From assembly GCA_903891325.1 (NCBI GenBank), contig CAITEC010000023.1, positions 19,248-83,247 of the forward strand: a stretch of DNA of 64,000 nucleotides, in the 5' to 3' direction. The notes under the pieces were generated by a model, which was not told where the DNA came from, did not search any database, and worked only from the letters and a program-made list of their open reading frames with translations. The first letter of the stretch is position 1. Each line of letters starts with the position of its first letter. The translations under genes were made by a program, and so were the position numbers. Source of the DNA: an uncultured Opitutaceae bacterium (GTDB lineage Bacteria; Verrucomicrobiota; Verrucomicrobiia; Opitutales; Opitutaceae). Below are positions 5,532 through 44,751 of this stretch, piece by piece.

Positions 5532-7502
5532 CTACCGACCCGTTTGCCCGGCCGCCGCCTTCAGGCGGGCGGCCTCCTCCAGCTCGGCCCTCCCCTCCCG
5601 GTCGAACCCCTCCCCGCCCAGGATCTGGCCGAGGATATCGTGCGCGGAGGCGTAGCCCGGATCGATCCTGATGGCCTCCCGCAGCTCCGCGACGCCCTCC
5701 GGGACGTGCCCGGTCTGCGCGAGCACCGCGCCCATGTTGGTGTGAACCGCGGCGTAGTCGGGCCTGAGCTGGAGCGCCCGCCGATAGCGGCCCAGAGCAT
5801 CGGTCCATCGCTCGGCCGCCGCATAGGCGTTGCCCAGGTTGTACTCCACGTCAGGCGCGTCCGGCGCTATCCTCAGCGACTCAAGGAAGCAGGGAATCGC
5901 CTCCTCGGGGCGCCCGAGCAAGTTCAGCGCCAGGCCCAGGTTGTCAAAGGGAGCCGCCTGCGCCGGGTCGTTGCCCCGCCGGTCGTGATCCTCCAGCCGG
6001 ATCGCCCTTCGGAACTGCGGCACCGATTCCTCGATGCGGCCCGTCCTCATCAGCGCCAGGCCCAGGTTGTAGTGCGCCTCGGCGAGATCCTCCCTGACCC
6101 GCAGCGCCGAATCGTAGTGGGAGATCGCCTCCGCATAGCGCCCCTGCGCGGAATAGAGGTTGCCCAGGTTGTTATCGGACATCCAAGCCCTCGGGTTAGC
6201 GCGGAGCGTGCCGAGGTAGAGAGTCTCCTTGCTGTGATAGAGGCGGCACTGCCGCCACGTGAGCGCTCCGAGCACGACGCATACGAAAATCGGGGCGATT
6301 TTCGTAAAGGTGAAAGTAGTAATTGGTAAGTGATCACGCGAGATTCGCCTTGTCCTAACTCCCTCTCCTCCCCTCGTGCTATCCTTACTAATTACTAATT
6401 TTCCCTTTCTAATTTCAGCATCCCAGGCCCCGGCGGCCAGGGCGAAGACGCCCAGGCTGGCGAGGTACTGCCAGTGGTCGGCGACGTAGGAGAAGACGTA
6501 GGCGTAAATGTTGAAAAAGCCGATCGTCGGGACGAGCGACCCGACGAAGAAGAGCCAGGCGGCGAGCGGGGCGCGGGTCCGGCGGTGGAGCAACGCGAGC
6601 GCGAGGGTCAGCGCAATGACCGCCAGGGAAAAAAGCCATTGCCAGGCGACCGTCGCGTCCACCTGCCAGCGCGGATAGGTGAAGCTGAGGTCCAGCGGCC
6701 AGAGCAGCTTGCCGAGGTAAAAGAGGGTCACGCGTCCCGCCAGGACGAATCGGCCGGCCAGGTCCAGCGCGAAGGCCGATCCGCTCGCCCCGATGTACGT
6801 TCGCTCCACCCAGCCGGAAAAGACGCCGGCCGCCCCGCCAAGCACAATCCATGGCACCAGCGGCCTGACATCCTCCCGCCAGGAGATCCGCCCACGCCGC
6901 CACCAGGCCACGACCAGGAGCGCCGCCGGAAGGGTCGCCGATACCGTCTTGCTAAGGAGTGCCGCGACGAAGAGGAGCGTGGCCGCCCCATACAGCCGCC
7001 GCGATCCACGGCCCCCGGACTCCCACTTCAGGTAGAAAAGCGCGGCCAGCAGGTAAAACACCGTGGACTGGGTGTTCTTCTGCTCGGAAATCCACGCGAC
7101 GGACTCCACGCACACCGGGTGCAGCGCAAAGAGAAGCGCGGCGAAAAGGGGCACCCTTGACCCGGCCCCCTGCGGCAGCAGGCGCCGCAGGACGAGCATG
7201 AACAGGAACGCGGCCGCGGCATGCAGCAGGACATTCACCAGGTGGTACGCCGGCGCCCAGTCCCCCCACAGCCGATGCTCGACCCAGAAGGCGCCGTGCA
7301 GCAGCGGGTAGTACTGCTCGGTCGACCCCAATTCGAACCAGATTCGCCACAGGCCGTGCAGCCCGCGCAGCGCCGGCTTTGTCACGTACGCATCGTCGTC
7401 CCAGACAAAGCCGGCGCCCAGCGCCGGAAAATAGGCGGCCAGGGTCGCCGCGAGGATCAGCGCCCCCTCCCATCCCACCAGCCTTCGGATCCGTGATATC
7501 AT
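5532..7502 (-). CDS. TMTC-like polytopic membrane protein with C-terminal TPR repeats (copy 2)
   Basis: The 656-aa protein has an N-terminal multi-pass half with an acidic first loop 'GFVWDDD' and the conserved 'FALHPVCVESVAWISEQKN' block. The C-terminal TPR array (from about residue 430) shows 'NLGNLYSAQGRYAEAISHYDSA', 'HYNLGLALMRTG' and similar units. This is the architecture of TMTC-type GT-C glycosyltransferases and of many bacterial membrane TPR proteins. The gene starts 1 nt after the stop of its paralogue at 7504-9585. Between the last membrane helices it carries an extra lysine/arginine-rich loop of about 40 residues, encoded by an AT-rich repeat (about 6313-6402) that the paralogue lacks. 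Glycosyl transfer is inferred from family architecture only. Confidence 0.8.
   Translation of the reverse strand: MISRIRRLVGWEGALILAATLAAYFPALGAGFVWDDDAYVTKPALRGLHGLWRIWFELGSTEQYYPLLHGAFWVEHRLWGDWAPAYHLVNVLLHAAAAFLFMLVLRRLLPQGAGSRVPLFAALLFALHPVCVESVAWISEQKNTQSTVFYLLAALFYLKWESGGRGSRRLYGAATLLFVAALLSKTVSATLPAALLVVAWWRRGRISWREDVRPLVPWIVLGGAAGVFSGWVERTYIGASGSAFALDLAGRFVLAGRVTLFYLGKLLWPLDLSFTYPRWQVDATVAWQWLFSLAVIALTLALALLHRRTRAPLAAWLFFVGSLVPTIGFFNIYAYVFSYVADHWQYLASLGVFALAAGAWDAEIRKGKLVISKDSTRGGEGVRTRRISRDHLPITTFTFTKIAPIFVCVVLGALTWRQCRLYHSKETLYLGTLRANPRAWMSDNNLGNLYSAQGRYAEAISHYDSALRVREDLAEAHYNLGLALMRTGRIEESVPQFRRAIRLEDHDRRGNDPAQAAPFDNLGLALNLLGRPEEAIPCFLESLRIAPDAPDVEYNLGNAYAAAERWTDALGRYRRALQLRPDYAAVHTNMGAVLAQTGHVPEGVAELREAIRIDPGYASAHDILGQILGGEGFDREGRAELEEAARLKAAAGQTGR
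6313..6402. repeat. AT-rich imperfect inverted repeat inserted in frame in a coding region
   Basis: The arms aaagtagtaattggtaag (6313-6330) and cttactaattactaattt (6384-6401) match as an imperfect inverted repeat at 16 of 18 positions. The block is visibly AT-richer than its flanks and sits inside the TMTC-like gene without breaking the frame. A related AT-rich motif occurs in the intergenic region at 11881-11912. This looks like a small REP or MITE-like element. Confidence 0.65.
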
Positions 7503-7503
7503 G

Positions 7504-9585
7504 CTAGTTGCCCGCGCCGGCGCGCCGCGCGGCCTCCTCCTCGCCCCTCGCCTCGCCCTCGCGGCCCAGTGCCCTCAGGATCACGGCCAGGTTCCGGTGA
7601 ATCTGCGCGTAGCCGGGATTGAGCTGCTCGGCCTTCCGCAACTCTCCGACCGCCTCGTCGAGCCGGCCCGCATTGACCAGCGCGGACCCCAGGTTGGCGT
7701 GCGCCTCCGCGTAGTCTGGCTTCAGCGCGACCGCCCTGCCGAAGGCGTCGATCGCCTCGGGCAGGCGCCCGGCCTGGGCCAGGAGATTCCCGAGGTTGAA
7801 CAGGAGACTGGGCTGGTTCGAACCCAGCCGAATCGCCGACTGATAGGCCCTGATCGCCTCGTCTGCCCGCCCCGTGTCGGCAAGGGCCGCGCCGAGGTAT
7901 CCGTACGCGTCGGCGTTCTCGGGCCTGAGCCTGACCGCCTCGCCGAATGCCGCCGCGGCCTCGGGCAGCCGTCCCTCGGCCACCAGCGCGATCCCCAGGT
8001 CGCTTTGCGCGTCCGCGTTTCCGGGCTCAAGCACGAGCGCGCGCTGGAAATCGGCGATCGCCTCCCCGGTGCGTCCTTCGCCCTTGAGGACCAAGCCCTG
8101 GTTGACGAGCGCCTCCGGATCGTGGGGATTGAGCCGCAGCGCCTCGTCGAACTCGGCCGCCGCCTCCGGGAGCCGGCCCATCTGGGCGAGGATCATCCCG
8201 ATGTTGTTGTGCGCATTCGGGAGCGCGGGGTCGATCCGGAGCGCCTCGCGGTAATGGGCGAGAGCCTCGTCGGGGCGCCCGGCCGCGTTGAGGTCGTTCC
8301 CGAGGTTGTTCTGGGCGGGAATGGACTCCGGGTTTGCCGCCAGGACGCTCGACCAGAGGCTGCGGGAGTCGTGGTAGATCCCGCACTGGCGCCACGTGAG
8401 GACGGCGAGGGCGACGATCACCGCGCCCCCGGCGAGCCGGGCCGGGGTGACCGGGGCGCCCCGAACCACCGCCACCGGCCGGGACCGGGCGTCCCAGCGC
8501 GCCCATCCCGCTCCCGCCAGGCAAACCACGCCGATGAGCGCAAGGTGCGCATAGTGGTCGGCCACGAGCGAGAATTTCATGAAGTAGACGTCGGTGAAGC
8601 CCATCACCGGGACCAGCGCCGCGCAGAAATAGCACCAGCCGAAAAGCAGGGGACGGGCGGGTCCCGCGCGGCGGCGGTAGAGCAGCGCGGTGAAACCAAG
8701 CGCGGCCAGTAGCGGAATCCACCAGAGCGGATTTCCCGCGCGGATGTGCCACTGGGGATAGACAAACACCAGGTTGAGCGGAAGGACCGCCTTGTAGAGG
8801 TAGAACCAGACAGCGGCCCCCGCCCCGGCAAGCCGCTCCGCCAGCCCGGCGTCCCGGATTGCCACCCCGGTCCCGTGCTTCTGGAACCACACGTCCACTG
8901 CCGCCAGCGCCGCGGCCGCGCAGAAAAAGGGCGCCGACCAGAGCGCGTCGCGGCGCGACAGTCGCCGCTTCCACGCGGCGATGCCCAGGAGCACGAGGGG
9001 CAGCGGCGCGACCGAGCCCTTGCTCAGCATGGCGAGGGCGAAGCAGAGCAGGCTCAGGGCATACCACCTTCCCTTCCGCAGAGGTTCCGCCGCGGGGATT
9101 CCCGACTCCAGGAAACACCGGACGCAGGCCAAAGTGAAGAGCATCGCCATCAGGTTTTTCAACTGGATGATCCAGGCGACCGACTCGACGTTCACCGGAT
9201 GCACCGCAAACAGGAAGGCGGCAAGGTAAGCACCCGGGAGACGGAGCCGGCGGAGGATTCCCCAGAGCATCAGCGCCTCGGCGCCATGGAGGGCGATGTT
9301 GACGGCGTGGTAGCCAAGGGGGTGCGCGCCCCAGAGCCGCCATTCGGCCCAGAAGGCCGTGTAGGTCACCGGCCAATAGTCGGTCTGCAGGGTGCTGAAC
9401 CAGAATCGCCGCAGGCCGGCCGAGGACCGGATGAGGTCGCTTTGGATCAGGAAGGGTCCGTCATCGAAGACGAAGCCGCCGGACAGCGCCGGCCAATAGG
9501 CGGCCAGGACCACGCCGAACAGCAGCGCTCCCGCCAGGAACAGGCGGGTCCGTTCAGGTGGAATCGCGGGGCTACTTTCCAACAT
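7504..9585 (-). CDS. TMTC-like polytopic membrane protein with C-terminal TPR repeats (copy 1)
   Basis: The 693-aa paralogue of the next gene has an acidic first periplasmic-loop motif 'GGFVFDDGPFL' and the block 'FAVHPVNVESVAWIIQLKN'. Further hydrophobic segments run to about residue 410, then a long TPR array begins with 'NNLGNDLNAAGRPDEALAHYREAL' and contains roughly eight 34-residue units. The acidic loop and the HP.NVES block are typical of TMTC/GT-C-like proteins, so a lipid-linked-sugar-dependent glycosyltransferase is possible. Its start overlaps the end of the glycosidase-like gene by 14 nt, and its stop lies 1 nt before the second copy. Tandem duplication is evident. Confidence 0.8.
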   Translation of the reverse strand: MLESSPAIPPERTRLFLAGALLFGVVLAAYWPALSGGFVFDDGPFLIQSDLIRSSAGLRRFWFSTLQTDYWPVTYTAFWAEWRLWGAHPLGYHAVNIALHGAEALMLWGILRRLRLPGAYLAAFLFAVHPVNVESVAWIIQLKNLMAMLFTLACVRCFLESGIPAAEPLRKGRWYALSLLCFALAMLSKGSVAPLPLVLLGIAAWKRRLSRRDALWSAPFFCAAAALAAVDVWFQKHGTGVAIRDAGLAERLAGAGAAVWFYLYKAVLPLNLVFVYPQWHIRAGNPLWWIPLLAALGFTALLYRRRAGPARPLLFGWCYFCAALVPVMGFTDVYFMKFSLVADHYAHLALIGVVCLAGAGWARWDARSRPVAVVRGAPVTPARLAGGAVIVALAVLTWRQCGIYHDSRSLWSSVLAANPESIPAQNNLGNDLNAAGRPDEALAHYREALRIDPALPNAHNNIGMILAQMGRLPEAAAEFDEALRLNPHDPEALVNQGLVLKGEGRTGEAIADFQRALVLEPGNADAQSDLGIALVAEGRLPEAAAAFGEAVRLRPENADAYGYLGAALADTGRADEAIRAYQSAIRLGSNQPSLLFNLGNLLAQAGRLPEAIDAFGRAVALKPDYAEAHANLGSALVNAGRLDEAVGELRKAEQLNPGYAQIHRNLAVILRALGREGEARGEEEAARRAGAGN

Positions 9586-11764: not shown

Positions 11765-11997
11765 GCCGGAATCGGTAGTGGAAGGACGCGACGCAGTAAA
11801 CCCATTTGGGCCAAAAGTGGAAATTAGCCGTTGGCAATGATCGAGGACGGTAAAATACCCAACCGACCGGCGCTCCAAAACCTACTAACTACCAATTACT
11901 AATTACTACTTTCCGAAAGTTCCTGTCCCGGGGCAAAATTAGTCTCGCCCGCCTTTTGCCCCCATGATGAGGATCGGCCCTCCCATCTCCCTTTCCC
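11765..11997. promoter_or_regulatory. Divergent intergenic region with a second AT-rich repeat copy
   Basis: This 233-bp region separates the minus-strand glycosidase-like gene from the plus-strand TIM-barrel gene and must hold both promoters. At 11881-11912 it contains an AT-rich stretch built from 'accaattact' and 'aattactact' units, related to the inverted repeat inside the TMTC-like gene. I see no convincing -35/-10 pair or known operator. Confidence 0.4.
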
Positions 11998-19781: not shown

Positions 19782-19915
19782 CGATGTAGCCGGGGTCCCA
19801 GACCCCGGGGCTTGGGGTCCTATTTCCGATCTCCAATCCCCGGCCTTGGAGCTTGCCCGGCGCAGCGAAGTAAAGACAGGCGGCCGGACCGGGGTCTGGG
19901 ACCCCGGCTACATCG
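19782..19915. repeat. Palindromic repeat, family 1, copy A
   Basis: Arms of 27 bases form a perfect inverted repeat (core tgtagccggggtcccagacc, with its complement ending near 19915), separated by about 80 bases. A second copy with the same arms and the same internal 'gcttggggtcctatt' segment lies at 44560-44651. Here it sits between convergent genes, where it could also act as a bidirectional terminator. Confidence 0.85.
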
Positions 19916-19924
19916 GAGAACGCC

Positions 19925-36596: not shown

Positions 36597-36617
36597 AACA
36601 GGTCGCGAAACATTTTT

Positions 36618-36768
36618 AACAGGAAGGCCGGGAAGATCGGAAAGGCCTGAAAAGAAGGGCCCAAAACCCAAAAATAAGAACAGATTACCGGCTCGGAATC
36701 CCGTCGTATCGCAGGAAGGAGTTGGATTGTGACGGATCGCACTTCCCGCGCTTCCCGATCTTCCTGTT
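36618..36768. repeat. Imperfect palindromic repeat, family 2
   Basis: The 27-base arms at 36618-36644 and 36742-36768 (core aacaggaag..cgggaag) match at 22 of 27 positions as an inverted repeat, with about 100 bases between. It fills most of the gap between the convergent MFS and ribokinase genes. It looks like a dispersed REP-like element and may end both transcripts. Confidence 0.7.
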
Positions 36769-36795
36769 CAAATCCGAAAGAGAATTCGAAATCAG

Positions 36796-44559: not shown

Positions 44560-44651
44560 TGTAGCCGGGTCCCAGACCCCGGTGCTTGGGGTCCTATTTT
44601 CGATCCCCCGGCCTCCTTGAGGCCGGGCCGGGGTCTGGGACCCCGGCTACA
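44560..44651. repeat. Palindromic repeat, family 1, copy B
   Basis: The inverted arms (gtagccgggtcccagaccc and its complement near 44651) and the internal 'gcttggggtcctatt' segment repeat copy A at 19782. This copy is shorter in the centre and lacks one G in the left arm. It separates the NatAB operon from the toxin-antitoxin-like pair. Confidence 0.85.
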
Positions 44652-44751
44652 TCGGAGTCCACAGCCGTCACGTGCGTTGCTGTTGCCTATATAGAACGAG
44701 ATGACGCGAAAATCACTTGATCAATCCAGGCATAGTAATACGGTATTACCA

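Follow-up and report, generated by a model that had tools for sequence, protein, structure and literature searches.

How did about 40 residues encoded by an AT-rich palindrome come to lie in a loop of a membrane protein, and are they a mobile repeat captured in frame or an old part of the protein? The gene in question lies in the window, i.e. the whole 64,000-nucleotide stretch analysed here (G000:C23:19248-83247), which belongs to a source assembly of 3.29 Mb in 140 contigs.

The element and its host gene

The features on which the argument rests are the following:

5532..7502 (-): TMTC-like gene (copy 2), the insert carrier; 656 aa, ORF intact, membrane domain plus TPR repeats (TPR family matches)
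6297..6419 (-): in-frame insert of ~41 aa, residues 362-402, AEIRKGKLVISKDSTRGGEGVRTRRISRDHLPITTFTFTKI; missing from C29, C116c, C20, and the sister species
6311..6330 (+): family-1 arm A, GTGAAAGTAGTAATTGGTAAG region; recovered by searching the genome for arms, with 2 mismatches to GGAAAGTAGTAATTAGTAA
6331..6383 (no strand): core flanked by the two arms, diverged from the canonical core; full-length consensus match, 72% identity, E 7e-5
6384..6409 (-): family-1 arm B, coding strand GAAAGGGAAAATTAGTAATTAGTAAG; differs from the arm at 2 positions, base-pairs with arm A in the fold
7504..9585 (-): adjacent TMTC-like paralogue (copy 1), element-free by paralogue comparison
11881..11915 (-): another family-1 copy within the window, one arm only, intergenic; exact GGAAAGTAGTAATTAGTAA

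The ORF at 5532-7502 (-) stays open across the whole AT-rich imperfect palindrome. On the coding strand, arm B (6384-6409) is the 5' arm and is translated KGKLVISK, and arm A (6311-6330) is the 3' arm, translated LPITTF. The DNA strand of the element folds at -14.2 kcal/mol vs -5.75 for its shuffles (z = -4.4), beating 200 of 200 of them, and two intergenic copies of the family reach z values of -8.1 and -9.5, whereas the corresponding region of the insert-free paralogue C29 gives +1.2. We therefore regard the palindrome as real and not as a chance pattern. A sequence-only reading of this DNA had described an inverted repeat adding about 40 in-frame residues, a recurrence of its motif at 11881, and a paralogue free of it; all three descriptions hold, the paralogue at 7504-9585 lacking the element although its own loop is fairly long. 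Within the window, ATTACTAATTACTA has 5 matches with up to 2 mismatches, compared with 0 in shuffles.

Two other identities were considered and rejected, i.e. a structured RNA (an Rfam search gave no match over the element) and a phage origin of the insert region (no match among phage records). A perfect 9-bp inverted repeat, CGAAAATCG-GGG-CGATTTTCG, is also present in coding sequence at 6283-6303 and adjoins the element's outer side.

The name TMTC-like is based on architecture and an aspartate-rich first loop: these proteins have at least 8 hydrophobic helices (hydropathy) followed by TPR repeats (TPR families), and their membrane domain matches no Pfam family or PDB sequence. The 3.3-Mb genome harbors 46 such ORFs, totalling 95 kb or 2.9% of its length. 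They often stand in tandem clusters (e.g. C15, C75, C116, C36, and 5532-9585 of the window), and the same search in sister species returns 6-39 matches. Family-1 sequence is found in the loop preceding the last membrane helix in 6 of the 46 genes, all among the nine closest paralogues; the carriers are C23 (window), C22a, C22b, C109, C116a, and C116b, and the translation is LLITNYSF or a variant. The remaining three of the nine (C29, C116c, and C20) have no family-1 insert. Human TMTCs have 11 helices, a cytoplasmic N-terminus, and a lumenal TPR part (PMC7801869), and by analogy with that topology the insert-bearing last loop would be cytoplasmic.

Two palindromic repeat families

The motif recurs well beyond the window, as a search of the genome proposed in the sequence-only reading makes clear. 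Specifically, AGTAATTRGTAA has 27 matches in the whole genome and none in the reversed control, and, when up to 3 mismatches are allowed, GGAAAGTAGTAATTAGTAA has 48 arm matches at ~22 places (control 0), in a census by pattern search that may miss diverged copies. The canonical family-1 copy is CGGAAAGTAGTAATTAGTAAGTGATGGTT..core..CCATCACTTACTAATTACTACTTTCCG, with arms based on a TTACTAA heptamer and a variable core. Copies measure roughly 30-130 bp (complete ones 99-126 bp, arms-only ones less), and one copy reaches 264 bp through an internal insertion. Complete or near-complete copies are located on C61, C72 (two), C36, and C79, and elsewhere the copies are partial or single-arm. Outside TMTC-like genes, all family-1 copies are intergenic or at gene ends. 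The family combines small size and terminal inverted repeats with no coding capacity for transposition.

Some family-1 copies touch neighboring sequences. At the intergenic copies L132 (C61:2849), L130 (C36:41430), L134 (C79:25210), and L217 (C12:41642), the upstream ORF ends inside the repeat, and a family-1 arm seems to supply its stop codon. At L131 (C53:5722-5985), L133 (C62), and L124 (C126), copies contain or adjoin further repeats, namely a GGTGGAACGCGATCTCCGAGCGCG palindrome and CAGGTTTCAGGTCTCAGG runs, as if repeats were nested within repeats.

As far as the collections show, family 1 is confined to the source species. Twelve sister genomes of the same genus yielded no copy, and with one mismatch allowed the source genome is the sole match among 384 genomes of the class (0 of 383 others). 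An exact 19-mer search of 84,980 species genomes, a collection that may omit records very close to the source genome, returned nothing beyond two stray matches.

A second family consists of GAACAGGAAGGYCGGGAAG palindromes of 67-153 bp that form strong hairpins at ~46 places in the genome. It is unrelated to family 1, with no sequence similarity between the two, and its matches in relatives are at control level, so it is also specific to the source species. The window holds one intergenic copy:

36617..36769 (+): family-2 copy, TAACAGGAAGGCCGGGAAG...CTTCCCGATCTTCCTGTTC; found in the family-2 search, non-coding

Five family-2 copies are in frame, all of them in TMTC-like genes. Three (C36:76516, C36:78538, and C65:21029) occupy the same last loop as family 1 and are translated EQEGREEREG...LPVLPVQ or a variant, and two (C75:1566 and C75:7642) lie in an earlier loop, for which a cytoplasmic position is likewise predicted. 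Family-2 copies (L185-L230) fall into length groups around 152, 104, and 76 bp, which points to discrete classes of internal deletion; the copies in frame in TMTC-like genes belong to the shortest class or are single arms. A further palindromic family, GGGGTCCCAGACCCCGG...CCGGGGTCTGGGACCCCGG, has two near-identical copies in the window, at 19782-19918 and 44567-44657.

Origin of the coding copies

Across both families, 11 coding copies were confirmed, and all 11 lie in TMTC-like genes with ORFs open across the repeat, to which they add at most about 40 residues. Further candidates were rejected: C109:6606, C21:4880, and C126:1552 are upstream of starts or in spurious reading frames, C110:4594 and C62:47162 are upstream of starts, and C12:41642 is at the 3' end of its gene. 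In tests formulated after the pattern was seen, 11 of 69 repeat places fall inside TMTC-like ORFs (P = 5e-6), and 9 of 69 fall inside the ~2.8 kb of last loops, a total that assumes an estimated 60-nt loop per gene (P = 1e-17 under uniform placement). Counting fewer independent events leaves 8 of 66 for ORFs (P = 6e-4) and 5 of 65 for last loops (P = 3e-9).

An old, conserved protein loop whose repeat-like DNA is a coincidence would agree with the intact ORF and with the similar residues in six paralogues. Yet the element-derived sequence is present in none of 51 TMTC-like homologues from 12 sister species, the same DNA occurs between genes, and only the source genome among the 384 of its class has the repeat. 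A loop conserved in all orthologues, which the sequence-only reading had named as the outcome that would speak against a captured repeat, is therefore not what the sister species show; their comparison rules out the old loop, to which we give a negligible probability. Comparable inserts in the TMTC-like loops of sister species amount to two weak GC-rich inverted repeats. The repeat also does not mark a site at which membrane and TPR modules were exchanged, given that identity within the C22 pair falls ~60 residues past the element and not at it.

Whether the coding copies arose by several insertions or by one is a closer matter. The family-1 arms of C22a/b, C116a, and C116b agree with the consensus at 24-25 of 26 positions, that of C109 at 25 of 26 (aligned by hand), and the window copy, the most diverged carrier, at 20 of 26, while membrane-domain DNA identity between family-1 carriers is 66-72% (85% for the C22 pair). 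Similarly, family-2 arms are 22-24/24 identical in four genes (18-19 in C36b), and the membrane domains of their carriers share 56-65% of nucleotides. Such near-identical arms in host genes that are ~56-72% alike fit better with several recent insertions than with one old one, judging from sequence comparison.

One or a few ancestral insertions, spread by gene duplication and kept alike by local gene conversion, would account for part of the pattern. C109, C116a, and C116b form a weakly supported group (SH-aLRT 84) and have the element ending at the same codon, as a single ancestral insertion would also predict; the C22 pair, at 85% identity, is a plain duplication; and an AU test does not reject a single clade of the six family-1 carriers (P = 0.29), which leaves room for gene conversion. 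Still, the arms of the carriers are near-identical to intergenic copies despite flanks of 66-72% identity, the elements of C22 and the window end at other positions, and the cores of C109 and C22 run in opposite orientations (both by inspection). The carriers need three changes on the tree, the insert-less C116c being sister to the C22 pair (SH-aLRT 99), and the unrelated family 2 repeats the same pattern. On balance, we consider an ancestral origin unlikely.

The in-frame capture of a mobile repeat, as the sequence-only reading had supposed, hence remains the best account of an insert that is seen in 0 of 51 sister homologues and of a repeat that is scattered between genes. We infer the mobility of family 1 from its copy number, recency, and species restriction. 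Overall, we give a probability of roughly 0.78 to the view that these are non-autonomous, species-specific palindromic mobile repeats, similar in action to Rickettsia palindromic elements (RPE), that survive in tolerant loops of a redundant gene family. Copies would insert at scattered genomic places, and those falling in most coding genes would be purged. Copies could persist in the short, poorly constrained cytoplasmic loop of the redundant 46-member TMTC-like family, provided that one reading frame remains open.

The form of the coding copies can be set beside this scheme. In most family-1 coding copies a single arm is left, read in the same frame each time (LLITNYSF), and the stop-containing arm is missing. 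By sequence inspection, the coding strand of the heptamer arm is open in a single frame (TTA CTA ATT ACT AAT TAC), and in longer arms each of the 3 frames of its complement contains stops, which would explain coding copies with one arm and one frame. The window copy retains both arms because its 5' arm is short enough for one open frame (KLVISK). The one-arm copies look like the result of selection for frame-compatible partial copies, and the extra residues are likely to be neutral or almost neutral.

A targeted hot spot, where a mobilising enzyme recognises DNA in the loop (e.g. the CCGAT beside the element end) and directs insertion there, would explain why a single short loop accounts for 9 of the 11 coding copies (P about 1e-17 if placement were uniform), and CCGAT follows several family-1 ends, both genic and intergenic (by inspection). 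However, the loop is used by two families that share no sequence similarity, another loop holds two of the family-2 copies, end positions differ by several codons, and tolerance by itself would also concentrate copies in loops, all of which makes targeting improbable in our view. We find it still somewhat less probable that the repeats are steered into the cytoplasmic TMTC-like loops, or retained there, because of a diversifying effect, with unrelated families independently providing raw material for new loops.

Target-site duplications, which the sequence-only reading had raised, were not found: none was seen by eye for family 1, and for family 2 a 4-base direct repeat in 1 of 33 copies is not above shuffled pairs. 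The search for a transposase link covered the six Y1_Tnp (RAYT-like) loci, and as 0 of 6 carry family-1 arms nearby, RAYT mobilisation of family 1 was rejected. One Y1_Tnp gene, L235 (C110:11294-11629), is flanked by GGGGTCATGCCCCAACTCCTTAATTTTT-type sequences on either side, with one family-2 arm lying upstream of it.

Relation to known palindromic elements

RPE measure 100-150 bp and occur in frame within ORFs, often at solvent-exposed sites and in orthologues of several species (PMC3767692, PMC10969869). The repeats described here resemble the palindromic elements of Rickettsia and Wolbachia (PMC3767692, PMC2229807, PMC10969869) in being palindromes of ~100-150 bp with several families per genome, located both between genes and in frame within ORFs, at places the protein tolerates, and they share with RPE the lack of a clear target-site duplication (none is recorded for RPE). 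As in protein-coding palindromic elements, the palindromes are dispersed and 11 ORFs remain open over inserts that homologues lack. Insertion in many unrelated genes, typical of RPE proper, was not found: the confirmed coding copies all belong to a single amplified family of membrane proteins. In addition, RPE are often common to orthologues of several species, whereas these repeats are confined to one. We call them RPE-like as a kind and do not claim that they are RPE proper, as the repeat was not found outside the source species.

Other small bacterial mobile repeats also make in-frame ORF fusions (PMC2229807). Like the bacterial MITEs ERIC, YPAL, and Correia/NEMIS (PMC2229807), the present repeats are small and non-autonomous, with terminal inverted repeats and occasional in-frame ORF fusions; unlike MITEs, they show no target-site duplication, and no autonomous partner was identified among the Y1_Tnp genes examined. 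GTAG REPs with RAYTs are present in Verrucomicrobia and abundant in Opitutus terrae (PMC3733652). Palindromic repeats, a genome encoding six Y1_Tnp proteins, and the location of some REPs inside genes are points of likeness with that system (PMC3733652). By contrast, GTAG REPs are 20-40 bp hairpins with GTAG at one end, and here the palindrome arms form the outer ends; REPs often flank a RAYT gene, and here no Y1_Tnp gene has nearby family-1 arms and one (C110) has a family-2 arm upstream.

Selfish palindromes captured in frame are familiar mainly from Rickettsia and Wolbachia, in which they occur across unrelated genes. Here, in a different kind of bacterium, two unrelated, species-specific families converge on shared loops of a single amplified family of membrane proteins. 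Near-identical arms in strongly diverged host genes amount to a natural replicate experiment, and such replicates let one ask whether hot spots stem from targeted insertion, from tolerance of the protein, or from positive selection, and also whether non-coding repeats provide new protein segments.
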